Translations under genes and position numbers: made by a program | Assembly (NCBI GenBank): GCA_951640195.1 | Contig: OX621164.1 | Span: forward strand, 2,337,098-2,401,097 | Source: Porpolomopsis calyptriformis | Lineage: Eukaryota > Basidiomycota > Agaricomycetes > Agaricales > Hygrophoraceae | Reading direction: 5' to 3' | Length of the DNA stretch: 64,000 bases | The notes under the pieces: generated by a model | Databases searched by the model: none | Told to the model about the DNA's origin: nothing | Seen by the model: only the letters and a program-made list of their open reading frames with translations | In this document: in pieces, positions 6,683 to 49,592 of the stretch | How positions within the stretch are numbered: the first letter of the stretch is position 1 | Layout of the letters: every line of letters begins with the position of its first letter

Positions 6683-7064
6683 TGTTAAGGCGCAGTGGTC
6701 TTTCGGTCGGCTTAGAGCGGTCAATGGATAGAGCAGAGATCCCAGTCAAACGACTAGGGTGGGGTGTCTATGTTGAGATCGAAACTGGAATACAAACTCT
6801 AACTATGCGTACTTATCTACTCTGAGTTTGAATTCTAGGACTCGACGACAATCCATGGAACGGCTGACTAAGCTGCTGCAGATGGCTGTGCAACTGCGGA
6901 TGGCGTCATTGCCGACCAATGGCGGAAGTTGCTCATGTGTGACAGTCACGGTCACAAGTGACAAGAAGGAAACGAAGGGATAAGGAAGGTGGTGAATGAA
7001 TGAGACAAGATTAGATAGGCTGCGATAAGATAAGATAAACGAAAAGAATGAACGTATCATAACA
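6683..7064 (-). repeat. 3' LTR of element A (382 bases)
   Basis: Bounded by cgatt on the left and by a polypurine tract on the right. Same length as its partner at 13519-13900. Confidence 0.93.
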
Positions 7065-7077
7065 TCACTCTCCCTTC
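7065..7077 (-). promoter_or_regulatory. Polypurine tract of element A
   Basis: On the minus strand the sequence reads gaagggagagtga directly before the LTR. This is the expected plus-strand primer site. Confidence 0.75.
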
Positions 7078-7097
7078 AGAATCGCGTCCGCGCGAGT

Positions 7098-7508: not shown

Positions 7509-7541
7509 GCGAATGACGCGGATCTGAAGTCTCGGGGCTGG

Positions 7542-10500: not shown

Positions 10501-11441
10501 AGTTCTTGCGATTTGGTCATCAACCGAATCTGGATGGCAGGAGCGAGATCGATTATGAGGAGATGATCGTCATCCTCCAGAGTGAGATTGTTGATGTCGG
10601 AGGAATCGACAGAGGGACGACAGTCTGATGGGCATCGATTGAAATCCAGGGTACCAGCCATCCAGTCCGTGGAGGGGTTGTAAGTCCTGAGCCAATCATG
10701 TCTGAGGAAAATCTGTCCTTTGCCGAGGTTGGTTACGCCAAAGCTAATCCTTTCCACGTGGGTTCCGATCCGTAGCTCAAGAGCGACCATATCCGTGATG
10801 GGGCCTTTGGTGTTTGGTTGTCCGTCAGCATTATGCACTGGGATGGGTCGAGCAAGGGGAGTCGTGTGGAGATCGTGGTCTCGGACGTACTTAACATCAA
10901 TACAGGAGCCTTCGCATCCGCTATCGATGAGAGCGGTAGCAGTGTGCTCCGTTCGATCGTCCAGGGTGACGAGGTGGGCTTTGAGTACGAGTTGATTTCC
11001 TTTGGAACCGCGAACGAAAACGTGAGGTTGTTTGAGTTCATTCAGGGCTCGGATGGCGTTCTCCGGGGTGAGAGCAGTGATTTCATCGATGGTGGACTGC
11101 ACCATTTCTTGTGAACGTGCAGGATGCGACCAATGTTGAAGGATGGAGATTGCAGAATTAGCATTGCCCTTAATAGCATTAACGGTGTCTAGAGGTGTTA
11201 AAAGAGAGTTGACGTCGATTGAAACGACAGAAGGAGACAATGGTTCGGGAATGGGGGTTTCGGGGCATTCAATGCATGCATCTGACGGAACAAGTTTCGG
11301 AAGGGGAGAAACAGCGGGGGTATTGGATTCGGGTATAGTAGGTATTGTACATGCCGTTGTTGTAAATAATGGAGAAATGTCTGATACAGTGTTGTGCCAG
11401 AGCAAGCAGCTACCAGTCGAATGAAGGGAACGCATCTTCAT
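7542..11441 (-). pseudogene. pol: Pol of chromovirus A: protease, RT, RNase H, integrase, chromodomain
   Basis: A single frame of 1300 codons. Protease: ALIDSGCEGSCID, about residues 170-180. RT: about residues 355-570, with YIDDILIFDKD intact. RNase H: starts at ETDASEG (about 9435-9455), later DHANLQYF and KANSKADILSRRP. Integrase: HHCC region (HDNPLSGHY, CETCQRTK), then D in VDLVGP, D in HDRDPRF, E in DGQSE at about 8290. The chromodomain near the C-terminus has YVVEKILDSR, YLVHWEGY and ENTWQ. Stops at about 9531 (TAG, Trp expected) and 8286 (TGA, Arg expected), with four more between 8286 and 7917. There is no frameshift. The ATG (11441-11439) overlaps the gag stop in ATGA. Confidence 0.93.
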
Positions 11442-13179
11442 CGACCGTTGACAAAATCTGATTTGTCATCCAGGGTGGGGGCTCCGTTCGCCGAGCTGTA
11501 CTCCTCTTCGGAAAGGAGGTTCTTCAGCTCGTTCAGCTCCGACGTGGTCATGTCGTAGAAGAGGGCGCGGACATTCACAGCAGCCTTCTCCTTGGGACAA
11601 TCTCAACGGAAATGTCCTATCTCCCCACAGTTGAAGCATCGGTGGGCCTGGCGCGTCTTGTCGACATCCATGGGCTTTCCTTGACCGCCATGAATGATCC
11701 CAGTCGGAACACGACGATCTTCAGCAGGTGGGGCTTGGGGACGAGGAAAGGTTTGAGGCACGAATCGTAAGGAAGAGGCAGCCGGACGACGAGCTTGTTC
11801 TTGTTGGCGATAATGCTCGTGAAGCTGTCCGATGGCTACGACCTTTTCGATATAGTTGGCCCAAACCGTGGGGAGGGGAGGGTTGAGGTACATTTGGCGA
11901 ACAATGTCGCGATGGATGTTTTTCTCAAAAATCCGGATCTTTTCTTTATCCTGGCTGAGGCCAGCAAGTTTTGCCTTCATCTCGTACCTGACGAGGTATT
12001 CCACAATGAGTGATGACCCTTGCGTCATGGTTTCAATCTCTTCTCACGCGCGTTGCTCCGAGGCGGTGTCCATGAAAGCTCTGTCAAGACCGAGCTTGAA
12101 GTCTGCCCAATCAGGGAAGGGGGCAGCGTTGCCCTGGGCGTCAGTCTGGTCGAGGAAGTCGTCAACGAACTGTTGGGCCCAGATGGCAGCAGTCCCTTCT
12201 TTCATATAAGAAAGAGTGACGAGGGCGCGTTCAGTCTTGTCGGTGATGCCACGACCGGCAAGGAAGATGATAACTTGTCGATACCAGTCCTTGTAGGTCT
12301 TTGGATCGCCATTGAATGTGCTGGGTTCTGCGAGCTTAATCTTACTAGAGACAGTGGCAGCCATTGGAAGAGGAACAAGGAGGGGACTGTTGGGCGGTGA
12401 AGGAGAAGGAGATGTGTGCGGGGTTGGTTCCAATTCGGGGTCCATGTCAAGGGGGAGAGCTAACGGCTCTCAAGAAGAAGGACTTGGGTTTTTGGAGGAA
12501 AGGGAAGAAGGAGCAGAAGGAGGCGGGTCTGAAGGTTCAAGTTCTGGTTCAAATTCTATGGAAGTGATCCGTTGCTTTCCTTTGGAACTAGGTCGTGGGA
12601 AAGGTGGATCAACCGGTGGAGGTGGGGTTCGTCGAGGTCTGAGACCTAGAAAGGAGAACGAGATGGGAGTCCGCGGTACGAAGGTGGAGGGCCCGGATTC
12701 GAGCGAAGAGATGGAGGGAAGAAGAGGGGGAAGAAACTGCGACGAGAAGGGTGAGTGGATCTCGTGATCTTCAGCGTCTTCGAATTCTTGTTCTTCTTCG
12801 GGTTCCGAGGTGCTGTAAGAGGGCCTTTGCGACGGGCGAGACGTGCTGGCTAATGGTTGAGTATGAGATGGATTTCTCGTACGTCTTGCGTATCATGACG
12901 TCGGAAAACGTAGATGACAGGGACAACAACTTGTTCTGTAAGGCGACGAGGGTGATGAACGTGAAAGCGAACTTGGAGATGGATGACCGGCTCTACTTCA
13001 AGGAGAGTGGATGGGTCGGACGGATCTTCAATCGGGGAAGACGGGGCAGTATCAAAAGATTCCTCGGATGAGGACGACAAAGGAGACAAAGGCGGGGAAG
13101 GGGCGAGGTCGGGTTCGTAGAATTCGTCGACCAACGGGTTGAGCTGTTCTGTGAGAGAATCAAGCTCTGCTGGTGACAA
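11438..13179 (-). pseudogene. gag: Gag of chromovirus A, with stops and one probable frameshift
   Basis: The well-supported part begins at ATG 12445 and ends at TGA 11440-11438. It has a Pro/Ser-rich N-terminus, a capsid core (STFNGDPKTYKDWYRQV at about 12290) and a zinc knuckle CFNCGEIGHFR at about 11610-11640. An in-frame TGA replaces the Arg expected just before the last Cys residue of the knuckle; another TGA is at 12043. Upstream, the same frame gives a long acidic and Pro-rich stretch back to about 12900. A second frame (Ser-, Pro- and Glu-rich, 13179 to about 12900) joins it only with one frameshift. The true start is uncertain; 13179 is a TTG inside an open frame that runs further upstream. 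Confidence 0.75.
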
Positions 13180-13518
13180 GTCTAGTGCGGCAGCGGTGAT
13201 CAGACGTGCATTGCTAATGAGCTCGGACGTCGATGCCTGATGTGGTTCGGGGTTGGTGAGGGCGTAGGGCGGAGGTGGCGATGGAGAGCGCGAGGCCAGG
13301 GTGGTGGTTGAATCAGTTACCGTGCGGGGATGTCAGAGTCACCCGTGGTTCTCTGAACGAGAAAGGTTGGCTTTGCAGGGGGAGCCTGGGTTGGGATTCC
13401 AAGGCAACAACGACGGTCTTTGTCTGGTAACCCAAAACAAGGACGGACGATGTCAGACGAATCTTGACCCGGGACTGTTGGGGAGAAAAGCAGAGGGAAA
13501 GAAGGAGTTTCGATCTTC
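13180..13518 (-). other. Leader region of element A
   Basis: This lies between the 5' LTR and gag. The minus-strand sequence next to the LTR (gaagatcgaaactcc) does not begin with TGG, so no ordinary tRNA primer site is visible. The upstream part of gag may extend into this region. Confidence 0.5.
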
Positions 13519-13900
13519 TGTTAAGGCACAGTGGTCTTTCGGTCAGCTTAGAGCGGTCAACGGATAGAGCAGAGATCCCAGTCAAACGACTAGGGTGGGG
13601 TGTCTATGTTGAGATTGAAACTGGAATACAAACTCTAACTACATGTACTTATCTACTCTGAGTTTGAATTCTAGGACTCGACGACAATCCATGGAACGGC
13701 TGACTAAGCTGCTGCGGATGGCTGCGCAACTGTGGATGGCGTCATTGCCGACCAATGGCAGAAGTTGCTCATGTGTGACAGTCACGGTCACAAGTGACAA
13801 GAAGGAAACGAAGGGATAAGGAAGGTGGTGAATGAATGAGACAAGATTAGATAGGCTGCGATAAGATAAGATAAACGAAAAGAATGAATGTATCGTAACA
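13519..13900 (-). repeat. 5' LTR of element A (382 bases)
   Basis: It starts tgttaaggca and ends cgtaaca, followed by the duplication cgatt at 13901-13905. It differs from the LTR at 6683 at about a dozen positions, all CG against TG or CA. Confidence 0.93.
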
Positions 13901-17575: not shown

Positions 17576-18183
17576 TGATACGTCTGCTTCATGTATGAGA
17601 ACCAAACACAGAACAAGGTGCAAGGACGACTATAAAGAGTCTCGACACAGTCTATGATCGATGATCGTGGATAGGAAGTCTTCGATCATTCGCGAACATG
17701 ATCAATCGGGGAATCGGAAGAATTAGAGAATTGAAGGAGGAAGTCTTAGAAGATCTAGAGAGGATCTAGACTCAAGAGCGAGAGAGAAGTGAATATCTAA
17801 CTTGTTGGATCACTAGCTACAACATACAGTATATATATCTTCTAGTACAAGGATCCCTTTGAATGTATATGATAAAAGGGGAGCCTCTCTAATGATCTAA
17901 GGGGAAAGTAGTGAATGGGAATGAAAGAATTGAATGAAAAGGGAGAAATAGAAGAGAACTGATGCCTTTGAATAGTGTCTTCCCTTTGATATACAAACTT
18001 TCATTCGCGTTTGGAAAGCTTCGATCGCGTTCGGAGCGTTTGATGATTCTCGAACTCATTTGGGATGTTCGGGAGCTATTGGGAGTGTTCGGAGGGTTCG
18101 AGTTCATGTTCGAAGGACTTGATAGGCATCTAGTATTTGTATAGTTGAATATGCAGTGCTCAGGGGATGGAGGGGTCATATCA
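17576..18183 (-). repeat. 5' LTR of B1 (608 bases)
   Basis: TGATAC...TATCA ends, read on the minus strand. Five other copies of this LTR lie in the window (21125, 39681, 45365, 55749, 57601). It contains a TATA-like run (gtatatatatc) at about 17830 and a 60-codon antisense frame at 17962-18144. Confidence 0.92.
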
Positions 18184-18839
18184 ATGTATACTCATTCATT
18201 CAGGTTTCATGACGAGGAAGGGTTTTCTGTCCTCGTTTGACCCTCAGTGAGGGTGTGCATTAAAGTATCGAGTGTAGGGTCGATTGTTATACTTACATGC
18301 CAACTCCTCTCTTTCCGTGAGTTGGGAGCTGCCATTATCTAAGTTGGCACGATGTCTTTGTTCACTCTGGGGTGAATTTATGGCCATTGCTGGCCATCTT
18401 TGGGTGTCACTGAGGTCATGACATGGCACACCTAAATCAGCAATAGCACTCATCTGCGCCATTCCCAGGTTGTCATCATCAGGCAGTTTGCCTTGCGAGT
18501 TGCACGCCATTGAGGCCTGCGTGATTTGAGTCTTCATGTGGGTCTTTGTCATTGATGGAGGCTGTGTCGTTGACAGGGAAGCTTTTTCAATCAAAAGTTG
18601 ATTTACACAGATATTCCACAATTTCTTGTGGATGTGCAAAAAAGTGTAAGGGTTGGGGATAAGTTATTACACTTTGCTCAATACCAGGATATGCACAGAA
18701 CCAATGTATTAGGGCAATCTGGTATAAGCGGGAGTGGGATATAAACTTATTGTTTACCTAAGTATAACTGGTACTTAAGGTATCTGGTACAAATATGTAC
18801 AAACACAGCACGGTGGCTGTATGTAACATATCTGTTACA
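18184..18839 (-). mobile_element. D2: 5' end of a second D element, truncated by B1
   Basis: A 195-base D LTR (18645-18839) is followed leftward by the D leader and the start of D gag (about 18551 to 18184). This matches 36390-37061 of element D. It stops where the B1 LTR begins. Right of the LTR, family B pol sequence starts (gactt...). D2 therefore sits in B4, and B1 sits in D2. Confidence 0.85.
18645..18839 (-). repeat. 5' LTR of D2 (195 bases)
   Basis: TGTAA...TTACA ends and the same length as both LTRs of element D. It carries more changes than those two, so it is older or has decayed faster. Confidence 0.9.
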
Positions 18840-19377: not shown

Positions 19378-20991
19378 CTACAATTGGTCTAAGACCATTT
19401 CCTCTTCCTTCTCTTCCAGACCCCTATACATTTCTTCAAGGACAATGATTTGCACCTTCAAACATGCCTTCTCCTCTGCGATCACTACTAAAACCTCCTG
19501 CAACTTCTCTTCATTGGTGACTGATACCTTCACTTTCCCTTTTCTACCTACAATCAGCTGTGTTATACCCTTCAAACTCTCACCCGCTGTTTCCTCCTCA
19601 AAGGGCAGGGTCTTGTTGATATAAACTACAGGACCTGAAAAAGAATTAGTTAGAAAGAATAAAAAAATGATAGAAAAAGAAAAACTTATGAGAAATGGCC
19701 CTCACCAACTTTCAAATCCCCTTTGACAATTCTCCCATCCTCACTGACTTGTCCGCATCCTTTGGTACCACCTTGGGCTGCAGCTTGTACTTCTTCCCCA
19801 GTTGTGTTTCCCCCTTCCAGTAACATCCATGTTTATCTGTGACACACTTGATGCATGATGGATCAGCAGGGTCAATCTCACAGTCAGCGCTAACTCATTT
19901 ACAAAAATCGCATTGCGAATAAAATAAAAATTATTAGAAAGAAAAATTGAAAAAGAAAGAGACTTACCTTGCCCTTGACTGGGTGTAAGGCCTCCTGTAT
20001 GTTTTTTCTCTTGTAGTACTCCTGTGTCATTATCACTGGAAGGGAGTGACCCTTCTCCACCATCCTCTCCCAATAGGCTACCTTTGACTGCTCAACCAGC
20101 TCTTCCTCAGTCAGCAGTTGTGCTGCTGCCACCAACTCCCCTTCACTGATCAGAGGCTCATGCCCTTCCTCCATTGTCTCCATTATCACCCCTGTCATAT
20201 CTGGCATGTCAGCTGACACCTCTGCCACTTTCATTCCACCTTTGCCTTTAGCCCTCTCTGTCTCCTGATGAAACTCATCCTCCTCAATCTTACTATCCAG
20301 AAACAGCTGGAGGAGCCACTCGTGGGCTTCCTCCATCCACTTCCAGACCTCCACGTCCTGCTCCTCTCATTCCCATTCTTCTTGTGCCTCTTGTTCTTGC
20401 TTCTCTCACACCTCTCATTCTGCCCTCTCAACCTGCTTGTACTCCTCTCATCTCTCCCATTCTTCATGCTCCACTTGCTCTCATTCTTCTTGCTCCTTGT
20501 GCTCAACCCTCTCTTGTTCCTCCTGTGCAGACACCTCCACCCTCTCCCTCACCTGGTGTTCCTCTTCCTCCTTTCACTCTCACTTGACCTTCTCTGCCTC
20601 TGCTTTCTCTTCAACCTCCCAATGCACCACCTCTACTAGTCTTGGCATCAACAGCCCCCCTGCCCACTCCAACTACCCTCATCCTTTGAAGATGGTGAAA
20701 GTCTCACAGGCCTCCTTTTGCCAGGCAACAACCTCATTATCCATTGATGTTTCCTTCGGGGCCTTCATGGCCTGATTGTATGCGATCTAAGAGATAAATT
20801 AGCAAAGAAAAATGATTAAAAGACACAAGACAGACTAGTAACTTGTAGAATTGCACCCCCCAGATCTTGTAATCTTCAGGCTCAGCAACTCCATCCAGAA
20901 GTGACTTCATTTGGTCACAGATCTTCTGCTTTGCAATAGTAATAACGTTCTTTGCAATTTGGATGTCTTGACGCAGTTTTCTTGATATCAT
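19378..20991 (-). pseudogene. Antisense accessory gene of B4 (decayed copy)
   Basis: This is the same multi-exon gene as at 46141-49454 in B2, on the strand opposite to gag-pol. Recognisable exons are AKNVITIAKQKICDQMKSLL (about 20955-20880), a Glu/Arg-rich helix region (about 20700-20340), KSKVAYWERMVEK-like residues (about 20080-20000), a Cys-rich exon (about 19905-19740) and the terminal exon ending EEMVLDQL at 19378. The conserved ATG of other copies is ATT here. Stops and frame breaks are present. The 3' end faces the pol stop across about 130 bases. Function is unknown. Confidence 0.75.
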
Positions 20992-21124: not shown

Positions 21125-21721
21125 TGATATGACCCCTCTGTCTTCTGAGCCCTATATATGAATACTAGATGCCTATCAAGTCCTTCGAACATGAATATGA
21201 ACACTTTGAATACCCTTGATAGCTCCTGAATGTCCCAAATGAGTTTGAGAATCATCGAAGTCTCTGAACACAATCAAAGCTTTCCAAATGCAAATGAAAG
21301 TTTGCATATCAATGGGAAGACACTATACAAAGGCTTCATTTCTCTTCTATTTCTCCCTTTTCATTTTATTTCTTCATTCCCATTCACTACATTCCCCTTA
21401 GATTATTAGAGAGGCCCCCTTTTATTATATACACTCAAAGGGATCCTTGTCTTAGAAGATATATATGCTGTATGTTGTAGCTAGTGATCCAACAAGTTAG
21501 ATATTCATTTCCCTCTTGCTCCCAAGTCCAGACCTTCTCTGAGACTTCTCCTTGACTTTCTCTATCAGTATTCAACTTCTCCAATCCTCAATCAATCAGG
21601 TTCATGAATGATCAAAGACTTCCTTTCTATGATTATCAATCATAGGCTATGTTGAGACTCTTTATAGTCATCCTCACACCTTGTTCTGTGTTCAGTTCTC
21701 ACACACAAAGCAGACATATCA
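21125..21721 (+). repeat. 3' LTR of B4 (597 bases)
   Basis: It begins tgatatgacccc directly after the purine tract agtgaggaggaga and ends catatca. The sequence then continues as B3 pol (atgtattacctgatgg). Confidence 0.88.
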
Positions 21722-23343: not shown

Positions 23344-23538
23344 TGTAAGGAGTGGGGATAAGTTATCACACTTTGCTCAATACCAGGATATGCACAGAAC
23401 CAATGTATTGGGGCAATCTGGTATAAGCGGGAGTGGGATGTAAACTTATTGTTTACCTAAGCGTAACTGGTACTTAAGGTATCTGGTACAAATATGTACA
23501 AACACAGCACGGTGGCTGTATATAACATATCTGTTACA
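23344..23538 (-). repeat. 3' LTR of D (195 bases), with polypurine tract at 23539-23552
   Basis: TGTAA...TTACA. On the minus strand gaagggggagga precedes it directly, the plus-strand primer site. Confidence 0.93.
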
Positions 23539-24130
23539 TCCTCCCCCTTCGGCTTAACTGCCGGGGTAAGTTAAGCCTGATAGCCAGGCAGAATACACAT
23601 AAAACAGTCTATAAACTACATAGAAAGAACTAAGAGAAATAGAAAATAAATGCCGTAGTAAAACAACTGCAGCGACAACTACATTCGTCCGTAGTCCATC
23701 GGGACGTCAGGTATCTCTGACGTACTATCAATACGTTCCTGAAGTGAAGCTGGCTCAGGTTCGGGGATCGGCGAGCTAAGTGAGACTTGCTCGCTATCGC
23801 TGCCTGGCGGCGCAGCGCTGTCTTGTGAGTCACGCCGTGAACGGCGTCGCGACGTGCGGGACGAGTCCCAGCCATGGGGTGGTCCACGCTCGGCGAGCGT
23901 GTATGTGATTTGTCCACGCCGAGTGAACGAGTTAGATGCATCAAACGCGTCTTGGGTGATCAGGCCCACGGATGGTGTCATGAAATTGGCGTTCACTCTC
24001 TTGAAATTCTTCTCTTTTCTTCATTCTTTTCTTTTCCTTGCCTGTTCTCTTTGGAAAGGGGGCTGTCTTTATTGGCAGCGGAAACTATTTGTACAAAGAG
24101 GGGGAGTCCATGTCCGACTAACTATCTAAA

Positions 24131-24966
24131 CTAGTCCGTCTTGGCAATCTCTTGCACCATACTGTCCCTCAAGAACTCTATGAAACTCGAGACTACTTGA
24201 CCATCTAATGCGGCCAACTTATTACCCCAGTAAATTGCCCCATTGGTGTTACCACCGGAGGCCTGCAACTCGGCAGCCTTCCCTTCGACGAAACCCATCG
24301 CTATCTTTCTCGCTTCCTCACCCAACCAATCGTTGGTGGGACTCCACAACAAACTGGGAGGAACTTCTTCCTCCTTGATCTTGACGTTGACGTTAGTCAA
24401 CGACAACGACAAATCTTTGACTAAAAAAGGCAAAGAAATCAGCAACTACGAAGAGACCGAGAGAGTTGAGAGCGTTACCACTAGACAAAACACTCAATGG
24501 ACCAGGCGTCCAAGGACGGAAAGGGGGACTGGCAGCCCAGTCAACTGCCTCCTTCTTGATGGAAGGAAGAGAGTCAGCCCACTTGTCGGACCCCCAATTG
24601 ACCTGCTCCTCCAAAGGGAGCTGGGAAGTAGGGGGAGGGGCGTCATCATCCCAAGCTAAAAAGGGAAAAGGCCTATTATCAATAAACACGGACTAATAAA
24701 GACAAAACAAAATACATACCAAGCGGATCCTCCATTAAGCCACAAACATGCTGGATCGGCCAGCGAACATACGGACACTTTCTGACCTTATGCTTGCCAC
24801 CGCAAGCAAAACAGGAGAAGGAAGACCAGCAGAGGTTGGTGTTGGAAGGGATGCGCTGAAGGTAGTAATGAAACGAATCACAATCGAGGAAGACAGGAGC
24901 GGTGCGGTGCACCACTCCAGACTGCTTGAAGAATCGGACGTAGTGGCCTTGGTGGGAGGGAGTCAT
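24131..24966 (-). CDS. H1 spliced gene, zinc-knuckle-like protein of 237 residues, intact
   Basis: Exons 24966-24720, 24655-24479 and 24420-24131 (247, 177 and 290 bases) join in frame to 238 codons. Both introns (64 and 58 bases) have GT...AG ends, with gtatgt at the first donor. A TATA box (25016-25022) lies 50 bases before the ATG. Cys52, Cys55, His59 and Cys64 form C-x2-C-x3-H-x4-C, one residue shorter than the usual retroviral knuckle. Exon 3 is acidic, then helical, with LLWSPTNDWLGEEARK, and ends VQEIAKTD. A nucleic-acid-binding role is inferred from the Cys/His motif only. Four copies share the gene; H1 and H2 have no stop. I know no family for it. Confidence 0.75.
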
Positions 24967-25474
24967 GATGAATTGACAAAGATTGAACTGAAGCATAGGG
25001 ATACAACCCCACACCTTTTATATGCTCAGACACAAAGGGAAGACCAAAAGGAGGTTCCTCAGTCAAAGAAGAGAAACCCGATACGCCGGACAAGAGATAG
25101 AAACAGCGGCGATCTCATGACTAGAAGAACAATAGGAACCAGTCATGAGACAGCACAGCCTGATACTGCGGAAGGCTATGCCCAATAGAGTTGAGTCATC
25201 AAAACAACACAGCCTTCCGCAGTATGACTAAGAACAATGGCAAACCTTAAACCGGAGGCTGTGAACAATAGAAAATGGGGTGACTGCGGAAGCTGACTCA
25301 TAGTGACTCCTATTTTAGAAATACTATATAAACCCTGAGGGCGAAGCGGATCATCACTTCGTCCTCCTGTGAGATTACTTGTAGTAGCACGAACGCAATC
25401 AGAATCATCAGACTTCTTTTCCACCAGAACAAGAAAAGAGAAACATAAACCCATAACTACTGAGCCAATCGTTC

Positions 25475-25685
25475 ATGCCCATATTCCCTAAACTCTCAGC
25501 AGAGGCACGCAACGGATTTAACTCGCAGAACAACTTCTTTGTAGAAGTAAAACTTAACTCAGAAGGAATCATCACCCTTTACGAGGACGTCCCCGTCAGG
25601 ACTTTCTTCTACATCCTACTAGACTTATTAAGCTCCAAGGCCTGCCTTGTGATTGACGAAAAGACTTGCAACTACAACTGTGACA
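25475..25685 (+). CDS. H1 rightward ORF, open through the element end (70 codons inside)
   Basis: A TATATAAA box at 25325-25332 precedes an ATG at 25475. The frame encodes MPIFPKLSAEARNGFN, then NNFFVEVKLNSEGIITL, and is still open when the element ends 211 bases after the ATG; it then runs into flanking DNA to 25714. The same 211-base distance holds in all four H copies. If H is an LTR, this would be the N-terminus of a Gag whose remainder lay in the lost internal region, as in yeast Ty1 where the Gag start is in the LTR. No domain recognised. Confidence 0.65.
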
Positions 25686-27649
25686 GATGGGGTGACAGAC
25701 TCATCATTAGATGAGATACGAGACTGGGGATGTCGGCAAGGACGTCCATCTGGGAACCATGTGTCATTTCCGTCACAAAGTGATGAAGGAATGCCATTCC
25801 TTACCAGTGTAGTACGTACAGACTCTCTGTATGTCTCAAGGGAGGATAAGTCCAAGACATTACCCTGGAGGGTGTCCTCGAGCCATTGGAAGGCATAGAC
25901 AAAGGCGTCGTCCGCCTGTTCAAATGTAACGCCTTGTCCGGCAAAGAATGGAACGAGGGATTGTTCCGTGACATTGGATGATCCAGAGTACCAGGCTGGT
26001 TCTCTGGTGGGTTCCGCAATGGACATGTTCGATCCCGTCACAAGTGAGCGATAGCGGCTGGGCATTCCAAACAGGAGGGCCGCCACTCTGATGTATTGCG
26101 ACTGTATTTGGTCGGTGTCTGTCGATGATCCGGCGGGAGCACGGGTCTTAGGTGACTTTGGTTTGTGTCGACTAACCAAAAGCATCCCGCGGAGGCTTCA
26201 CAGTGAAATGCTGCCATCTCGTTCTAAGCGCACTCCAGGGTGCGCGGCATGGCGGTTTATGTAGAACCAATGAGCCCACTCTTCCGGGGAACTCGTGGCG
26301 GTTGGCTGAGACGGGTTAATCCGTCCAGGCACAGAAGAAGTCGGCACCTGTACAGGTGCATCGGTGGAGTCACCTGAAGCCCAGGCGGGAACTCTCCAAT
26401 GGATTAACGAGACGCGTTGAGCGTCCGTTCTGCTCTCTCGAGGAGTCGCCTGCGCTGTCGTGACGAATGATCGCACGAGTTCGAGAGCCTCGTTATTGCC
26501 CAATTCTTGGGCTTGAATGAATAGAGCGCGCCATTGGCACGTGTTGACTGGGTATCCACGGTCATCTGCAGATCGAGTTCCACGCGGAGGGGGTAGTCCC
26601 ATTGCTTCATTTCGTCGCACTGCTTCACCGCTAGCGCCAACCTGGACGGTCTGGTCAACGGGTGAGTAGTGGGCCCCAGCAGGGATGCTGGGCCAAGCAG
26701 TAATGGTCGAGCGCTTATTGCGCTGTTTGATCATCTTGCCACTAGGGCCAGATTGATTATTCACTCCCGGATCTGGGAGGTTTGGGAACTCGACATACGA
26801 GGTGGGTTGAAGGCGAGCCTTCAGTTCCTCATTCTCTCAAATGATTTGAGGGAAGCGTCTCTTGATGTATGCGTTATCCTCCTTGTCGAGGTCTCCGAAC
26901 ATCAGGCCACAGCCCGCCAACTTGTCGTCCGAGTACGGATCGAAATGTTCCATATCGGCTCTTCATCGAGCCTCCTCATCTGTTTCTTTTTCCTTGCCCT
27001 TGTCTTGGGCAGAGGGGTTCTTGGTCACAGGGCTGGCCACCCTTGTGTATTCTGACGATTGCGAATGCAATCCCTCGGTACGGGAGTGCTTGCACTTTCC
27101 TAGCGATTCGGCCTTGCTAGTGTCGTTAGACTTGTTCAGCTTGGCTATAAGCTGATTGGCTTTATAAAGCTCATCTTGAGTTTGTTCATAATGAGCGCGA
27201 TAGTAATCACCATCGTCTTGAGCCTTCTCGAGTGAGATGGTTAGGTTTCGGATCTCTGCTATGAGTTCCTCTTGATGTGCCTTGCGGCAGTTATCAAATG
27301 CCTCTTTCAGCGAGGCGTCTTGGTACACGCTGTCTTCAATGACATGTATTACATAGTCTTTGCAGACTTTACACCTCCGGTGACTGGAGTGTATCGCGAC
27401 GTTGATGGTGCTGTTACACACCCATGTTTTCGGGGGTAACTCTGACAAGTTACTTGTGTTTTGTCGAGAGCGGTGCTCTCTCTCCCCTTCAGAAGAGGGC
27501 CCACGCTGTGTCTGGCGTGGGGGTCTGATGACTTCATTGGGACCAGCCATTAGCTGATCCCCGTCGTCTCCCACCGTTTCCAGTGGTCTCGGGTCTACGG
27601 GGCGGGGGCTTGTTCTTACGCTTGTGGGCATGCTATTTTCATTCGACAT

Positions 27650-30800: not shown

Positions 30801-31938
30801 TCAAAGTATTGTCGTTGCGTTTACGACAATCAATTGGCGTCCGTAGAGTGCTGTTCTTCTTTGGAATGCACAGCATTGGAGCTGCTTGATCGGTTTGCAC
30901 TGATTCCCACCATCCAGCGCGCGTGTACTGTGTGATCTTCGCCATAAGCTGAGGCTTTAGTGAGTCCGGACATCTCGGAAGGTAATAATTGTACTTCTTA
31001 TCTTCGTCGATAAGAGGTATGTAGTGATTGACACCACGTACCGGAGGTAATTCCTTGGGTACTCCGTGCATGATATCTTGGCACGCTTCGATCCATTTGG
31101 CTCAAAGGCGAGGTCTGTCCTCATTTGTTAGGGATGTTTCGGTCCTTTTGTTCAGTTGAACAATTTGAGCTACACTCAGTAGCATCTTTTCATTAGACCC
31201 GGTAGGGGTACTCTCTTTTATTTTCTTTGTGTTCGCGTCTGAACACCTTTTTCTTGAAAACTCCTCAACAAACTCTTTTGGTTTGTCTGTTTCTATGACG
31301 TCCTGTCTGGACGTCTTCCCTGCAGAACCTTTCGGTTCTGCGTCTGCTAGTCATTCAGCAGACCTTTGTTCAGTTCGCCGCAGCGATTGTCTGCACACGA
31401 TTTCATCATTTTCCTCCCCTTCAGTTAGAGCAGGAGCGGCTACCCTGCGGACCATTATTTGGTTTGCGCTAGGCTCTAGCGTAATTTCGAATTCACACAT
31501 GAATCTGATGCCAATTATAGCGTCGAATCTGTCGATATTTACAATATTGAAATAGTATTTCTTAGCGATACTTTCGTATCGCACGGGACAGTAAGTACCG
31601 TAGTTAATCCGCGATCTGCTACCGCAGCATCCTAGTTGGATCGGAACAGGGTCCTTCAACTGATATATCTTCAAATTTGTGACTCTCACAAATTCTGGGC
31701 TAATGGCATCAGAAGTGCTGCCTGTATCGAACATTACAATGGCTACGAGGCCGTTTAATTCCATGCGAGCCACTAAAGGCCTTTGTCATGAAATTGGCAT
31801 CCACTCTCTTAAAATTCCTCTCTTTTCTTCATTCTTTTCTTTTTTTTGCCTGTTCTCTTTGGAAGGGGGGCTGTCTTTATTGGCAGTGGAAACTATTTGT
31901 ACAAAGAGGGGGAGTCCATGTCTGACTAACTATCTAAA

Positions 31939-32774
31939 CTAGTCCGTCTTGGCAATCTCTTGCACCATACTGTCCCTCAAGAACTCTACGAAACTCGAGA
32001 CTACTTGACCATCTAATGCGGCCAACTTATTACCCCAGTAAATTGCCCCATTGGTGTCACCACCAGAGGCCTGCAACTCGGCAGCCTTCCCTTCGATGAA
32101 ACCCATCGCTATCTTTCTCGCTTCCTCACCCAACCAATCGTTGGTGGGACTCCACAACAAACTGGGAGGAACTTCTTCCTCCTCAATCTTGACGTTGACG
32201 TTAGTCAACGACAATGACAAATCTTCAACTAAAAAAGGCAAAGAAATCAGCAACTACAAAGAGACTGAGAGAGTTGAGAGCATTACCACTAGACAAAACA
32301 CTCAATGGACCAGGCGTCCAAGGACGGAAAGGGGGACTGGCAGCCCAGTCAACTGCCTCCTTCTTGATGGAAGGAAGAGAGTCAGCCCACTTGTCGGACC
32401 CCCAATTGACCTGCTCCTCCAAAGGGAGCTGGGAAGTAGGGGGAGGGGCGTCATCATCCCAAGCTAAAAAGGGAAAAGGCCTATTATCAATAAACACGGA
32501 CTAATAAAGACAAAACAAAATACATACCAAGCGGATCCTCTATCAAGCTACAAACATGCTGGATTGGCCAGCAAACATACGGACACTTTCTGACCTTATG
32601 CTTGCCACCGCAAGCAAAACAAGAGAAGGAGGACCAGCAGAGGTCAGCGTCGGAGGGGGTGCGCTGAAGGTAGTAGTGGAAAGAATCGCAATCGAGAAAG
32701 ACAGGAGCAGTGCAGTGCACCACTCCAGACTGCTTGAAGAATCGGACGTAGTGGCCTTGGTGGGAAGGAGTCAT
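31939..32774 (-). CDS. H2 spliced gene, zinc-knuckle-like protein of 237 residues, intact
   Basis: Exons 32774-32528, 32463-32287 and 32228-31939, matching H1 base for base in length and splice sites. The C-x2-C-x3-H-x4-C motif is kept (CFACGGKHKVRKC). Differences from H1 are few and include His-Arg to His-Cys and Val-Arg-Trp to Val-Cys-Trp, both consistent with CpG change. No stop. A TATA box lies about 50 bases upstream. Whether it is expressed cannot be seen. Confidence 0.72.
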
Positions 32775-33280
32775 GATGATTGACAAGGATTGAACTGAAG
32801 TGTAGGGATACAACCCCACACCTTTTATATGCTCAGACACAAAGGGAAGACCAAAAGGAGGTTCCTCAGTCAAAGAAGAGAAACCCGCTATGCCGGGCAA
32901 GAGATAGAAACAACGGCGATCTCATAACCAGAAGAACAATAGAAATCAGTCATGAGATAACACAGCCTCAATCTGCGGAAGGCTATGCCCTATAGAATTG
33001 AGTCATCAGAAGCACACAGCCTTCTGCAGGATGACTAGGAACAATGGCAAACCTTAATCGGAGGCTGTGAACAATAGAAAATGGGGTGACTGCAGAGGCT
33101 GACTCATAATGACTCCTACTTTAGAAATACTATATAAACCCTGAGGGCGAAGCGGATCATCACTTCATCCTCCTGTGAGATTACTTGTAGTAGCACGAAT
33201 GCAATCAGAATCATCAGACTTCTTTTCCATCAGAACAAGAAAAGAGAAACATAAACCCATAACTACTGAGCCAATCGTTC

Positions 33281-33491
33281 ATGCCCATATTCCCTAAACT
33301 CTCAGCAGAGGCACGCAACGGATTCAACTCGCAGAACAACTTCTTTGTAGAAGTAAAACTCAACTCAGAAGGAATTATCACCCTTTACGAGGACGTCCCC
33401 ATCAGAACTTTCTTCTACATCCTACTAGACTTATTAAGCTCCAAGGCCTGCCTTGTGATTGACGAAAAGACTTGCAACTACAGTTGTGACA
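33281..33491 (+). CDS. H2 rightward ORF, open through the element end
   Basis: ATG 211 bases before the element end, as in H1. The product differs from H1 by about two residues (Ile for Val in EDVPIRTFF, Ser for Asn near the end). It runs into D sequence beyond 33491. Confidence 0.62.
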
Positions 33492-36866: not shown

Positions 36867-37061
36867 TGTAAGGAGTGGGGATAAGTTATCACACTTTGCT
36901 CAATACCAGGATATGCACAGAACCAATGTATTGGGGCAATCTGGTATAAGCGGGAGTGGGATGTAAACTTATTGTTTACCTAAGCGTAACTGGTACTTAA
37001 GGTATCCGGTACAAATACGTACAAACACAGCACGGTGGCTGTATATAACATATCTGTTACA
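36867..37061 (-). repeat. 5' LTR of D (195 bases)
   Basis: Differs from the 3' LTR at two CpG positions. The minus strand after it reads cttttttgcacatcc, with no TGG start, so the primer site is not obvious. The leader from 36866 to 36776 is in frame with gag. Confidence 0.92.
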
Positions 37062-38002: not shown

Positions 38003-39513
38003 CTACAATTGGTCTAAGACCATTTCCTCCTCTTTTTCCTCCAAACCCCTGTACATCTTCTTGAGAACAATAATTCACACTTTTATATGCGCTTTCTCCT
38101 CTGCAATCACTGACTAACACCTCTCGCAACTTCTCTTCATCAGTGACCATCACCTTCCCCTTCCCCTTCCTACCTGCAATTGGCTTTGATGAGCCCTTCA
38201 AACTCTTGCCTGCTGCCTCCTCCTTGAAAGGTGGTGTCTTGTCAATATAGACTACTAGACCTATAAAAAGAGAGAATTAGAGAAGAAACAAGAAAAGAAA
38301 AAGTTCTACTTATGAGAAACAGCCCTTGCTGACTTGCAAACTCCCTTTGACGATTCACCTGCTATTGCCAACTTATCTGCTACTACCTTCGGCCACAGTT
38401 TGTACCTTTTCCCCAGCCTTGTTACCTCCTACTAATAGCATCTATGTCTATCCGAGATGCACTTGATACATGATGGGTTGGATGGGTCGAGCTTGCATTC
38501 AGTGCTGACCCATTCACAAAAATCACACTGTGAATAAAATAAAAATTATTTAGAAAGAAAAAATTGAAAAAGAAAGAAATTTACCTTGCCCTCGACCAGG
38601 TGCAAGGCTTCCACTACATTCTTCCTCTTGCAGTACTCCCACATCATCATCACCAGAAGGGACTGACCCTTCTCCACCATCCTCTCCCAATAAGCTGCCT
38701 TTGACTACTTAATGAGCTCTTCCTCAGTCAGTAGTTGCGCTGCTGCCGCCGACTCGCCTTCACCATTTGGGGGCTTGTGCCCTTCCTCCATCATTTCCAT
38801 CATTGCCCCTGTTATATCTGGCATGTCTGCTGACACCTCTGCCACCTTCGTTCTGCCTTTCCCCTCAGCCTTCTCTATCTCTCAATGAAACTCCTCCTCC
38901 TTGATCTTACTATCCAGAAACAGCTGGAGGAGCCACTTGTGGGCTTCCTCCATCCACTTCTGGACCTCTGCATCCTGCTCCTCTCATTCTTGTTCTGCCC
39001 TCTCAACCTGCTCCTGCTCCTCTTGCTTCTCTTGTTTCTTGTACTCCACCCACTCTTATTCTTCTCACACCTCTTGCTCAACCTGTTCTGCCTCCACCCT
39101 CTCCCTCACCTCATGTTCCTCTTCCTCCTTCACTCTCACTCAACCCTCTCTGCCTCCACTTTCTCTTTGACCTCCTGATGTACCATCTCTGCCAACCTTA
39201 GCATTAGCAGCTCCCCTACCCACTCCAACCACTCCCATTCTTCAAAAGTATCAAAGGTCTTGCAGGCCTCCATTTGCCATGCAACAACCTCATCATCCAT
39301 CAATGTTTCTTTCAGGGCCTTTATGACCTGATTATACACAATCTAAGAGATAAATTAGTGAAGAAAAACAATTAGAAAAACAAGACTCACTAGCAACTTG
39401 CAAAATTGTTACCCCAAAATCTTGTAATATTTAGGCTCAGCAACACCATCTGGAAGTGACTACATTTGGTCACTGACTTTCTGTTTTGCAATGGTAATCA
39501 CATTCTTCGTCAT
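38003..39513 (-). pseudogene. Antisense accessory gene of B3 (decayed copy)
   Basis: The ATG at 39513 (ATGACGAAGAATG) starts MTKNVITIAKQK. Next come the second exon (about 39340-39200, MYNQVIKALKETLMDDEVVAWQ), a charged region, and the Cys-rich and terminal exons ending at 38003. Stops and one frameshift near 38100 break it. The TATA box atttataagtgtg (minus strand, about 39600-39615) and the palindrome copy aatcatgtgatt (about 39640) precede it. This is the third copy with the same layout between pol and 3' LTR. Confidence 0.75.
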
Positions 39514-39680: not shown

Positions 39681-40288
39681 TAATATGACCCCTCCATCCC
39701 CTGAGCCCTGTATATTCAACTATACAACTACTAGATGTCTATCAAGTCCTTCAAACATAAATACAAACCCTTCGAACACCCCCGATAGCTTCTGAATATC
39801 CCAAACAAGTTCAAGAATTAACAAACTCTCTAAACGCGATTGAAGCTTTCCAAATGCGAATGAAAGTTTGCATATCAAAGGGAAGACACTATACAAAGGC
39901 TTCATTTCTCTTCTATTTCTCCCTTTTCATTCAATTTCTTCATTCCCATTCAGTATATTCCCCTTAGATTATTAGAGAGGCTCCCTTTTATTATATACAC
40001 TCAAAGGGATTCTTGTTTTAGAAGATATATATACTATATGTTGTAGCTAGTGATCCAACAAGTTAGATATTCATTTCCCTCTTGCTCTAAAGTCTAAATC
40101 TTCTCTAAGACTTCCTCTTGACTTCCTCTTTCAATTTTCCAACTTCTCCAATCATCGATTGATCACATTCGCGAATGATTGAAGACTTCCTTTTCATAAT
40201 CATCGATCATAGGCTGTGTCAAGACTCTTTATAGTCATCCTTGCACCTTGTTCTGTGTTCAGTTCTCATACATGAAGTAGATCTATCA
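39681..40288 (+). repeat. 3' LTR of B3 (608 bases)
   Basis: Begins taatatgacccc (TGATACG decayed) after the purine tract cagtgaggaggaga (39667-39680) and ends ctatca. The right flank is Helitron sequence. Confidence 0.88.
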
Positions 40289-41968: not shown

Positions 41969-42179
41969 TGTCACAACTGTAGTTGCAAGTCTTTTCGTTG
42001 ATCACAAGGCAGGCCTTTGAGCTTAATAGGTCTAGAAGGATATAGAAAAATGTTCTAACAGGAACGTCCTCAAAAAGAGTAATGATTCCTTCAGAGTTAA
42101 GTTGGACTTCTATAAAGAAGTTATTTTGTGGGTTGAATCCGTTTCGTGCCTCTGCTGAGAGTTTAGGGAATATAGGCAT
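41969..42179 (-). CDS. H3 outward ORF, open through the element end
   Basis: ATG at 42179, exactly 211 bases from the left end. The product shows about five substitutions against H1, mostly conservative (Ile for Val, Phe for Tyr, Asn for Asp), and no stop. The same element's other gene has two stops, so retention of this frame is suggestive. Confidence 0.6.
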
Positions 42180-42684
42180 GAACAGTTGGTTCAATAGTTC
42201 CAAGTTATGTTTCTCTTTTCTTGTTCTGATAGAAAAGTAGTCTGATGATTCTGATTGCATTCGTGCTACTACAAGTAATCTCACAGGAGGATGAAGTGAT
42301 GATCCGCTTCGCCCTCAGGGTTTATATAGTATTTCTAAAATAGGAGTCATTATGAGTCAGCCTCTGCAGTCACCCCATTTTCTATTGTTCACAGCCTTCA
42401 ATTAAGGTTTGCCATTGTTCCTAGTCATTCTGCAGAAGGCTGTGTGCTTCTGATGACTCAATTCTATTGGGCATAGCCTTCCGCAGAATGAGGCTGTGTT
42501 GTCTCATAACTGGGTTCTATTGTTCTTCTGGTCATGAGATCGCCGTTGTTTCTATCTCTTGCCTGGTGTATCGGGTTTCTCTTCTTTGACTGAGGAAGCT
42601 CTTTTTGGTCCTCCCTTTGTGTCTGAGCATATAAAAGGTGTGGGGTTGTATCCCTATGCTTCAGTTCAATCCTTGTCAATCATC

Positions 42685-43513
42685 ATGACTCCTTCCCACC
42701 AAGGCCACTACGTCTGATTCTTCAAGCAGTCTGGAGTGGTGCACCGCACTGCTCCTGTCTTCCTTGATTGTGATTCTTTCCACTACTACCTTCAGTGCAC
42801 CCCCTCCGACGCCGACCTCTGCTGGTCCTCCTTCTCTTGTTTTGCTTGCGGTGGCAAGCATAAGGTCAGAAAGTGTCCGTATGTTCGCTAGCCAATCCAG
42901 CATGTTTGTGGCTTGATGGAGGATCTGCTTGGTATGTATCTTGTTTTGTCTTTGTTAGTCTATGTTTATTAATAATAGGCTTTCCTTCTTTTTAGCTTGG
43001 GATGACGACGCCCCTCCCCCTACTTCCCAGCTCCCTTTGGAGGAGCAAGTCGATTGGAGCTCTGATCGTTGGGGGCATCCCCTCCCCTTTGATGATGCTA
43101 AGCCTGAGGACTGGGCTACCAGTCCCCCTTTCCGTCCTTGGACCCCTGGTCCAACAAGTGCTTTGTCTAGTGGTAAGCCCTTAACTCTCTCGCCCTCTTC
43201 ATGTTTATTGACTCCTTATTTCTCAGTAGAAGATTTGTCATCATTGACTAACGTCAACGTCAAGATTGAGGAGGAAGAAGTTCCTCCTAGTTTATTATGG
43301 AGTCCCACTAACGATTGGTTGGGTGAGGAAGCGAGAAAGATAGCAATAGGTTTCATCGAGGGGAAGGCTGCTGAGTTGCAGGCTTCTGGTGGAGATACCA
43401 ATGGGGCAATCTATTGGGGTAATAAATTGGCCACATTAGATGGTCAAGTAGTCTCGAGTTTTGTAGAGTTCTTGAGGGACAGTATGGTGCAGGAGATTGC
43501 TAAGACAGACTAG
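42685..43513 (+). pseudogene. H3 spliced gene, broken in exon 1
   Basis: Exons 42685-42931, 42996-43172 and 43227-43513. Codon 11 is TGA (Arg in H1) and the Trp after CPYVR is TAG. Exon 3 is three bases shorter than in H1. The Cys/His motif remains. Exon 2 has a divergent stretch (GHPLPFDDAKPED where H1 has DSLPSIKKEAVD), the largest difference among copies. An AATAAA lies at about 43577, after the stop. Confidence 0.72.
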
Positions 43514-43748
43514 TTTAAATAGTTAGTCGGACATGGACTCCCCTTTTTGTACAAGTAGTCTCTGCTGCCAATAAAGACAGCCCCCTCCCAAAGAGAACAG
43601 GCATAGAAAAGAAAGGAAAAGAACAAAGAAAAGAGTGGAATTTTAAGAGAGTGAACGCCAATTTCATGACACAGAATCAAATAAAAGATGATGTCTTGCA
43701 GTAGGGGTCAATGTTTTCATTATTGCTAGCTCACAATATTGAATACAG

Positions 43749-46880: not shown

Positions 46881-47091
46881 TGTCACAACTGTAGTTGCAA
46901 GTCTTTTTGTCAATCACAAGGCAGGCCTTGGAGCTTAATAAGTCTAATAGGATGTAGAAGAAAGTCCTGACGGGGATGTCCTCGTACAGGGTGATGATTC
47001 CTTCTGAGTTAAGTTTTACTTCTACAAAGAAGTTGTTTTGCAAGTTAAATCCGTTGCGTGCCTCTGCTGAGAGTTTAGGGAATATAGGCAT
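46881..47091 (-). CDS. H4 outward ORF, open through the element end
   Basis: ATG at 47091 (a second in-frame ATG at 47097), 211 bases from the left end; TATA at 47234-47241 on the minus strand. The product differs from H1 at four or so positions. Open. Confidence 0.6.
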
Positions 47092-47598
47092 GAACAATTG
47101 GCTCAGTAGTTATGGGTTTATGTTTCTCTTTTCTTGTTCTGATGGAAAAGAAGTCTGATGATTCTGATTGCGTTCATGCTACTACAAGTAATCTCACAGG
47201 AGGATGAAGTGATGATCCGCTTCGCCCTCAGGGTTTATATAGTATTTCTAAAATAGGAGTCACTATGAGTCAGCTTCCGCAGTCACCCCATTTTCTATTG
47301 TTCACAGCCTCCGGTTTAAGGTTTGCCATTGTTCTTAGTCATACTGCGGAAGGCTGTGTTGTTTTGATGACTCAACTCTATTGGGCATAGCCTTCCGCAG
47401 TATCAGGCTGTGCTGTCTCATGACTGGTTCCTATTGTTCTTCTAGTTATGAGATCGCCGCTGTTTCTATCTCTTGTCCGGCATATCGGGTTTCTCTTCTT
47501 TAACTGAGGAACCTCCTTTTGGTCTTCCCTTTGTGTCTGAACATATAAAAGGTGTGGGGTTGTATCCCTACGCTTCAGTTCAATCCTTGTCAATCATC

Positions 47599-48432
47599 AT
47601 GACTCCTTCCCACCAAGGCTACTACGTCCGATTCTTCAAGCAGTCTGGAGTGGTGCACCGCACCGCTCCTGTCTTTCTCGATTGTGATTCTTTCCACTAC
47701 TACCTTCAGCGCACCCCCTCCGACGCCGACCTCTGCTGGTCCTCCTTCTCTTGTTTTGCTTGCGGTGGCAAGCATAAGGTCAGAAAGTGTCCGTATGTTC
47801 GCTGGCCAATCCAGCATGTTTGTGGCTTGATGGAGGATCCGCTTGGTATGTATCTTGTTTTGTCTTTGTTAGTCTATGTTTATTGATAATAGGCTTTCCT
47901 TCTTTTTAGCTTGGGATAACGACGCCCCTCCCCCTACTTCCCAGCTCCCTTTGGAGGAGCAGGTTAATTGGGGGTCCGACAAGTGGGCTGACTCTCTTCC
48001 TTCCGTCAAGAAGGAGGCAGTTGACTAGGCTGCCAGTCCCCCTTTCCGTCCTTGGACCCCTGGTCCATTAAGTCCTTTATCTAGTGGTAATGCCCTTAAC
48101 TCTCTCGCTCTCTTCGTAACCGCTGATCCTTTATCTTTTTAGTTGAAGATTTGTCCTTGTCGTCGACCAATGTTAACGTCAAGATTGAGGAAGAGGAAGT
48201 TCCTCCTAGTTTGTTGTGGAGTCCTACCAACGATTGGCTAGGTGAGGAAGTGAGAAAGATGGCGATGGGTTTCATTGAAGGGAAGGCTGCTGAGTTGCAG
48301 GCCTCCGGTGGTGACACTAATGGGGCAATCTACTGGGGCAACAAGTTGGCTGCATTAGATGGTCAAGTAGTCTCGAGTTTTGTAGAGTTCTTGAGGGACA
48401 GTATGGTGCAGGAGATTGCCAAAACAGACTAG
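47599..48432 (+). pseudogene. H4 spliced gene, one stop in exon 2
   Basis: Exons 47599-47845, 47910-48086 and 48143-48432 (247, 177, 290 bases; 238 codons). Introns of 64 and 56 bases with GT...AG. TATA at 47544-47550. The Cys/His motif is kept. A TAG near 48027 replaces the Trp of VDWAASPPF. An AATAAA lies at about 48487. Apart from that stop the protein is close to H1. Confidence 0.75.
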
Positions 48433-49592
48433 TATAAATAGCTAGTCGGACATGGACTCCTCCCTTTGTACAAGTAGTTTCCGCTGCCAATAAAGACAGC
48501 CTCCTTCCCAAAAGAACTGTCATAAGAAAGACAAGAAAAGAACGAAGAAAAGAGAGAAATTTTAAGAGAGTGAACGCCAATTTCATGACAAACGAAGGCA
48601 GCGGAGGTGTCAGCAGATACGCCAGACACGACGGGGGCGTCGACGGAGACGACGGAGGATGGGCACCAGCCCTCGGTTGACGAAGACGAATCGGCGGCAG
48701 CAGCGCAATCGCTGACTGCAGAAGACGAGATTGAGAAGTCGAAGGCGGCGTATTGGGAGAGGATGGCAGAGAAGGGACGGTTGCTCCCTGCGATCACGAC
48801 ATGGGAGTTCCACAAGCGAAAGGCGGTAGAAGAGGCTTTGCGCCCAGTCGAGGGCAAAGTAAGTCTCTTTCTTTCTCTTATTTTTGTTTTTACTAACAGA
48901 CTTCTTTATTTTGCAGTGTGATTTTTGCGAGAAGGTGGGCGCGGAGTGCGAGATCGGCCCCGCGGATCCGTTATGCGTCAAGTGCGTAACGGATAAGCAC
49001 AGCTGCTATTGGAAGGAGGAAACCTGCCTAGGGAAAAAGTTCAAGCCGCGGCCCAAGGCGACAGCGAAGGGCGCGACCAAGTCGGCGACGGCGGAAGAGT
49101 CGAAGAAGGGGGTTTGAAAGTCGGCGAGGGCCGTTTCTTGTAAGTGTTTCTTTTTCTATTGTTTTTCTTTTATTCTTTCTAACTAATTCTTTTTCAGGTC
49201 CAGTTATCTATATCAACGAGACGCTGCCTTTCGAAGAGGAAACAGTGGGCGAAGGCTCAAAGGAAATGACGCAACCGATTGCGGGTCAGAAGGGAAAGGC
49301 GAAGGCGGCGGCTGTCGATAAAGACAAGTTGCGAGAGGTGTTGGCGGCGATCGCGGAGGAGAAAGCGCGCGTAAAGGCGCGAATCGTTGTTCTCGAAGAG
49401 ATATTGAGGGGTTTAGAAGAGAGGGAAGAGGAGATGGTCTTGGACCAGTTATAGATTTTACTTTGTTTTTTGTATAATTTTTGTAGCCTCTAGTCTTCTC
49501 CTTTTAAAATTGTATTTTTTTTTTGATTCTAAAAAAAATGAAAGAAAGACTTAAAATGAAAAAGAAGTGCGTAGCGATGCATTACGGCAGGT

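Follow-up and report, generated by a model that had tools for sequence, protein, structure and literature searches.

Long terminal repeats (LTRs) are commonly regarded as non-coding promoter modules, and among known protein-coding LTR sequences are sag in the U3 of mouse mammary tumor virus (MMTV) and TYA of Ty1, which starts inside the LTR, both on the sense strand and without a divergent partner. Here we describe H, a family of 1.7-kb LTRs in a 64,000-nucleotide stretch of the Porpolomopsis calyptriformis genome (GCA_951640195.1, contig OX621164.1, forward-strand positions 2,337,098 to 2,401,097; hereafter the window), whose U3 holds a complete, intron-containing gene model on the antisense strand. 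Antisense genes of LTR elements are themselves known, and the body of one of them, HBZ of human T-cell leukemia virus type 1 (HTLV-1), lies outside the LTR. Within the Ty3/Gypsy group, excerpts of PMC11963269 describe a conserved antisense open reading frame (ORF) of Retand, Grande and RIRE2 with a suspected regulatory, nucleic-acid-binding role; in Retand, a non-chromovirus, this ORF occupies the stretch from pol to the 3′ LTR and mostly encodes TRP28. HTLV-1 HBZ and HTLV-2 APH-2 are presented in the excerpted text of PMC10186651 as spliced antisense genes that use the LTR as a bidirectional promoter, HBZ being a bZIP protein with a TATA-less promoter in the 3′ LTR. As for priming, the primer sites of Tj1 and Tf1 are described in PMC4600332 as pairing with the 5′ end of the RNA of the same element.

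H shares features with each of these systems. Like Tf1 and Tj1, it belongs to an element with a Ty3/Gypsy pol that includes SH3_Tf2-1 and a chromodomain, and its self-priming layout matches theirs as excerpted in PMC4600332. It differs from them in having an LTR of 1.7 kb whose U3 accommodates an entire antisense gene, in a leading ORF (ORF1) before gag, and in a gag frame unlike those of ORF1 and pol; a gene within the LTR is not known to us from Tf1 or Tj1. As with HBZ in its excerpted description, the H gene is a spliced antisense gene predicted to be driven from a bidirectional LTR promoter, but its promoter (with a TATA box), all of its exons and its polyadenylation signal lie inside U3, and no bZIP domain or Pfam match was found in its product. 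Like Retand, H is Ty3/Gypsy with a conserved antisense ORF and a suspected regulator; in contrast to Retand as described in the excerpts, the H gene lies inside the LTR, has introns and lacks a Pfam match, to PF04195 (TRP28) or otherwise. Among genes in LTRs, MMTV sag resembles H in residing in U3 and Ty1 TYA resembles the sense ORF1. A literature search of open-licence papers, with subscription papers mostly outside its reach, returned no case of a retrotransposon whose LTR contains a whole antisense gene with introns. Overall, we put a probability of roughly 0.86 on the LTR anatomy being as read here together with an antisense gene that serves the element, the biochemical function of its product standing outside that figure.

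Complete elements and the identity of H

The preliminary description had read four H units in the window as solo LTRs of an unusually long, gene-carrying LTR, and had proposed a search for direct H pairs enclosing pol. Across the whole genome (33.5 Mb, 17 contigs) such pairs were found, and the five complete elements read support that interpretation. L009 (C5), L010 (C12), L023 (C10), L024 (C6) and L025 (C8) each consist of direct 1.7-kb H copies around an interior of ~5.35 kb, with LTR-LTR identities of 97.9–98.65% and an exact 5-bp target site duplication (TSD) in 5/5 (CTGTC, CATAC, CTGAT, ATCTA and GTGAT, respectively). Integrase matches fall within all five LTR pairs. The ORFs of L009 and L010 encode gag with a CCHC knuckle, aspartic protease, reverse transcriptase, RNase H, integrase, SH3_Tf2-1 and a chromodomain, the Pfam matches RVP_2, RVT_1, RT_RNaseH, rve, SH3_Tf2-1 and Chromo having been located in these two elements. 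Protease, reverse transcriptase, RNase H and integrase follow one another in that order and the chromodomain lies C-terminally on the integrase, as in Ty3/Gypsy chromoviruses.

A primer site expected after the LTR end is present two bases downstream: in L009 and L010 the bases TT separate the LTR from AGGACGAAGTG, and the 3′ LTR is preceded by a tract rich in purines, which reads AGGAGGGGGGTAA or AGGGAGGGGGTAA. The primer site is complementary to an 11-nt sequence within the LTR itself, CACTTCGTCCT, at LTR position 1380 and 30 nt downstream of the sense TATA box. To follow this and other features among copies, we used a 76-copy alignment drawn from 91 chained H matches, with 14 partial matches and one copy with an insertion (L037, 2074 bp) omitted. 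These are 76 of at least 257 copies; 38 were chosen by DNA and the 38 others mostly via protein matches. A listing of the best of 336 matches (150/567 candidates scored) may leave distant relatives unseen. CACTTCGTCCT is exact in 35 of the 76 copies and carries one CpG-type transition in 27 plus 10 more; of the remainder, one has another change and three were not parsed. The primer site is thus complementary to the predicted 5′ end of the element's own RNA, as in Tf1/sushi elements, and H is the LTR of a self-priming Tf1/sushi-type Ty3/Gypsy chromovirus in a fungus.

These elements also bear on whether H might instead be a two-gene DNA transposon bounded by very short terminal inverted repeats (TIRs). 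Its five inverted terminal bases, its 5-bp duplication and the fact that most copies stand alone would fit such an element, but direct pairs flank gag-pol with a primer site and a purine tract, and no transposase domain was detected in 7 proteins scanned against Pfam. With the inverted bases limited to TGTCA/TGACA, the five complete elements refute this candidate; the doubt that the preliminary description had voiced about it was well placed, and we regard the idea as vanishingly improbable.

In a genome search with the H integrase piece (88/1048 candidates scored), 16 places (17 rows, two of them adjacent on C13) matched at 81% identity or more and the next listed family at 45%, values by which H is judged a family distinct from that one. 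The organisms named among 120 listed integrase relatives were the mushroom-forming fungi Ceratobasidium, Rhizoctonia, Moniliophthora and Pleurotus, together with Parasitella, and the best matches (up to 64% identity) were metagenome proteins.

The 20-base LTR start, with up to 3 mismatches allowed, matched the whole genome 257 times (142 + 115) and its reversed control 0 times, so the matches are not due to chance. Primer sites numbered 16 genome-wide; even with two LTRs assigned to each of 16 interiors, 225 LTR starts would be left over, and most H copies are therefore solo LTRs. Solo LTRs arise through recombination between the LTRs of an element, which presumably left those of H as well. 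Because 16 primer sites stand against 257 LTR starts, the antisense gene has survived at most sites where its element has not, and automated annotation could mistake it for a host gene family. Of the full-length LTRs sampled with both flanks, 66 lie outside the five complete elements; 47 of these had an exact duplication, 8 matched at 4/5 and 11 did neither. A flank resembling the primer site or purine tract marks L027 and L074 (among the 8, where their matches are probably due to chance) and L012 at 2605, L018, L064 and L075 (among the 11) as broken elements.

The antisense gene in U3 and selection on it

The preliminary description had credited each unit with a divergent gene pair. This holds for the minus-strand gene, which is complete within the unit, whereas the plus-strand gene is a fragment of a 167-codon ORF. 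The features of the first unit in the window are as follows.

23971..23975, no strand: TSD GATGG, left of H unit 1, 5 bp
23976..25685, plus strand: H unit 1, solo LTR of 1710 bp, TGTCA...TGACA, antisense gene intact
24068..24073, minus strand: AATAAA polyadenylation-type signal, kept after the stop in 68/76 copies
24131..24420, minus strand: antisense exon 3 with stop, 290 bp
24421..24478, minus strand: antisense intron 2, 58 bp, GT-AG in 76/76 copies
24479..24655, minus strand: antisense exon 2, 177 bp
24656..24719, minus strand: antisense intron 1, 64 bp, GT-AG in 76/76 copies
24720..24966, minus strand: antisense exon 1 with start codon (ATG 24966), 247 bp
24775..24813, minus strand: CCHC zinc knuckle CX2CX3HX4C, residues 52–64, all four ligands individually present in ≥97% of the 76 copies
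25016..25025, minus strand: antisense TATA box GCATATAAAA
25113..25225, no strand: shared promoter with inverted repeats TCTCATGACT/AGTCATGAGA (25113, 25141) and ATACTGCGGAAGGCT/AGCCTTCCGCAGTAT (25163, 25211)
25325..25332, plus strand: TATA box of the element's sense transcript
25355..25365, plus strand: self-primer CACTTCGTCCT, 11 nt, assigned by sequence complementarity to the primer site
25475..25685, plus strand: sense ORF1, LTR-encoded first 70 codons, start in R-U5
25686..25690, no strand: TSD GATGG, right of H unit 1, 5 bp

The antisense gene model is complete, with TATA box, ATG, three exons, two introns, stop and AATAAA, and its predicted product is a 237-aa zinc-knuckle orphan. Of the 76 copies, 40 retain the gene model unbroken, two of the four window copies among them.

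Variation among copies follows this gene model closely. Relative to the window copy, exons 1–3 (714 bp in all) contain 0, 2 and 4 distinct indels, whereas the two introns (64 and 58 bp) contain 7 and 9. Pairwise differences at codon positions 1, 2 and 3 amount to 6.5, 4.4 and 17.7% in the antisense gene and to 5.0, 1.8 and 14.6% in the LTR part of the sense ORF. The ratio of nonsynonymous to synonymous divergence (dN/dS) declines as copies diverge: in the antisense gene it starts at 0.73 (16 pairs) and reaches 0.13 (1358 pairs), and in the sense ORF the corresponding values are 0.94 (62 pairs) and 0.08 (832 pairs). In these comparisons both genes bear the codon signature of purifying selection among diverged copies.

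Separating shared variants (present in at least 5 copies) from singletons, with CpG-type columns removed and a neutral figure that assumes transitions at 20 times the rate of transversions, revealed 79/114 synonymous shared variants in the antisense gene against 32% expected (p = 4e-16) and 22/29 in the sense ORF (p = 2e-6), with antisense singletons near neutral (41/106 synonymous, p = 0.09). CpG decay was rejected as the source of the codon bias, which persists without CpG-type columns. Choice of copies by protein match was likewise rejected, as the bias persists in the 38 DNA-chosen copies, where 37/64 shared antisense variants are synonymous (p = 2e-5). This codon-level evidence suggests that the antisense gene has been retained over repeated rounds of retrotransposition. 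It also bears on the notion that the LTR reading frames are chance or fossil sequences that go untranslated, a notion to which the lack of homologues and a reading based on sequence alone lend something. Codon-position bias, the scarcity of indels within exons, splice sites present in 76/76 copies and the synonymous excess among shared variants agree in opposing it, and we consider it very unlikely.

A different pattern emerged within the complete elements. Between the paired LTRs of the five elements, the antisense gene has accumulated 37 nonsynonymous and 24 synonymous changes and 3 stops, which fits neutrality, since these counts are near the 59/39/2.5% predicted from the mutation spectrum. 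CpG-type transitions make up 98 of the 142 LTR-pair differences, which suggests CpG methylation of the H repeat in its host. Overall, selection appears to maintain the antisense gene in copies that replicate further and to let it decay in the rest; because the gene is neutral-like after insertion, selection seems to act on the replicating element and not on the host. H also provides a natural setting in which selection at the level of the element can be tested against selection at the level of the host, with a gene constrained between lineages and near neutral after insertion.

The same data speak to the alternative that the gene is useful to the host, having been spread by the element and kept working for the fungus by solo LTRs. 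This would account for the 40/76 sampled copies that are intact (in a sample of which half was chosen largely by protein match), for more than 250 LTR starts in the genome, and for the slight synonymous lean of singletons in each half of the sample. The near-neutral LTR pairs, near-neutral antisense singletons in the whole sample and a preponderance of CpG-type transitions, as expected of methylated silent repeats, all run counter to it, leaving host use an improbable explanation. A free host cargo gene was rejected on the neutral-like behavior of the antisense gene in LTR pairs.

Several observations weigh against an antisense gene that serves the element. Its model is broken in 36 of the 76 copies, which we attribute to decay after insertion, and its splicing, start site and translation are inferred from sequence. 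Shared antisense variants in CpG-type columns (43 nonsynonymous, 40 synonymous, 1 stop) display no synonymous excess. The contrast between single and shared variants was not significant for the antisense gene in the 38 DNA-chosen copies (Fisher p = 0.23) or for the sense ORF (p = 0.13). The LTR-pair test for the antisense gene comprised 64 changes in five pairs, with the spectrum taken from the same pairs. Antisense singletons are slightly synonymous (18/40, p = 0.06, in DNA-chosen copies; 43/106, p = 0.04, in the others) and sense ORF singletons more so (11/21, p = 0.04, DNA-chosen; 19/33, p = 0.002), and because singletons lean in this direction there may be weak constraint after insertion.

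Nor did relatives of the antisense protein come to light. A protein database search with 251 candidates contained no homologue at E ≤0.001, and a second with 7991 candidates scored contained none at E ≤10. Six antisense protein members had no Pfam match at E up to 10; a PDB sequence search gave 11 matches at E ≤5, the best (0.015, a hydrolase) judged to be chance, and another search gave one at E 1.1. The H-masked window held no convincing second copy of the protein (best E 2.7), and AlphaFold was uninformative, with a mean predicted local distance difference test score (pLDDT) of 30.4 for ORF1 and 44.7 for exon 3. A control search with the integrase piece returned 3841 matches at E ≤0.001; as fungal entries are among the 120 listed, the database does include fungal proteins. 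The absence of homologues therefore carries some weight, limited by the gene's introns and by the word-based search, and it leaves the function of the antisense protein without outside support.

The divergent promoter, ORF1 and possible roles of the antisense protein

The two genes face away from a divergent promoter with two TATA boxes ~300 bp apart. The inverted repeats between these boxes are conserved and include a 15-bp pair with a third partial copy; a third ACTGCGGAAG lies at 25283. Across window positions 25163–25292, a well conserved stretch of the divergent promoter, ACTGCGGAAG occurs in three copies, one of them inverted, and these repeats are a candidate binding site.

On the sense side, ORF1 of complete elements continues through the primer site to 167 codons, and it is truncated in a solo LTR because the ORF extends into the element's interior. 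It is open in L010, L023 and L025 and interrupted in L009, L018, L024 and L027, as well as in L075, which was read only in part. ORF1 overlaps gag, whose frame differs from those of ORF1 and pol. ORF1 may encode a leader protein or, by frameshifting, an N-terminal extension of Gag. In L010, where 1497–2000 and the gag start were examined, the ORF1/gag overlap is out of frame and a second frame change separates gag from pol.

The LTR is 1.7 kb long because its U3 houses the complete antisense gene, and we propose that the ~300-bp divergent promoter drives both this gene and the element's genomic RNA. Genomic RNA would run rightward from ~25355 and the antisense RNA leftward within U3. Introns would survive reverse transcription, being antisense to the genomic RNA, and every new element would receive two copies of the gene. 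The antisense protein would most probably act in cis for the element, its zinc knuckle binding nucleic acid, and regulate its own divergent promoter or protect the element from silencing or restriction. A positive or autoregulatory role is our tentative preference, at somewhat less than even odds. The narrower proposal, that the protein binds the conserved promoter palindromes and keeps an apparently CpG-methylated chromodomain element expressible, is speculative and rather doubtful. If this narrower proposal is true, the LTR would amount to a self-contained cassette of regulator and promoter, with intact solo LTRs scattering potential trans-regulators genome-wide.

The main rival holds that the antisense protein restrains the very element that encodes it, exerting copy-number control, for example as a zinc-knuckle competitor of Gag or as a repressor of the divergent promoter. 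Ty1 p22 is such a brake on Ty1. Both the antisense protein and the element's Gag have a zinc knuckle (the likeness being the CCHC motif), the gene adjoins a shared promoter with conserved palindromes, and antisense mRNA would be complementary to the U3 sequence with which the genomic RNA ends. Proliferating lineages would be expected to shed a brake readily, yet constraint is seen between lineages that spread; we consider this role conceivable, with perhaps one chance in a few.

H units in the window and neighboring repeats

All four H units in the window have exactly the coordinates and TGTCA...TGACA ends first assigned to them, and their 5-bp duplications were recovered as described: GATGG, GCCTT and CAGAA are exact, and AACAA/AACGA agrees at 4/5 positions. 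The three further units are 88–95% identical to the first.

31784..33491, plus strand: H unit 2, solo LTR with TSD GCCTT and an intact antisense gene
41969..43671, minus strand: H unit 3, solo LTR with TSD CAGAA; a stop at codon 11 breaks the antisense gene
46881..48590, minus strand: H unit 4, solo LTR with TSD AACAA/AACGA; a stop at codon 122 breaks the antisense gene

A comparison with empty sites, suggested in the preliminary description, succeeded for the 46881–48590 copy, which is inserted within another repeat. With one duplication removed, its joined flanks align without a break to paralogs at 38718–38974 (77%) and 20086–20378 (71%), and the former has AACGA at the junction, matching the empty site of this copy. 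The same flank-joining test found no site-spanning paralog for the 23976, 31784 and 41969 copies. Elsewhere in the genome, on another contig (L014), an H copy is nested in an older H copy, of which bases 342–346 (GTGAG) are duplicated. The H copies L013:2096-3802 and L079:277-1983, on different contigs, lack a duplication and have the same mismatched pair of 5-base flanks, mirrored, as if an LTR-carrying segment had been duplicated.

The window holds another Ty3/Gypsy element at 6683–13900, with 382-bp direct LTRs (6683–7064 and 13519–13900), TGTTA...TAACA ends and CGATT flanks. Given these short LTRs and an integrase 35% identical to that of H, long gene-carrying LTRs are not general here. 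A repeat of ~608 bp with TGATA...TATCA ends is present in six copies, nested with other repeats (17576–18183, 21125–21721, 39683–40288, 45365–45972, 55749–56356 and 57601–58207). Finally, units of 195 bp with TGTAA...TTACA ends, 96–99% identical to one another, lie at 18645–18839, 23344–23538 and 36867–37061 and look like small solo LTRs.
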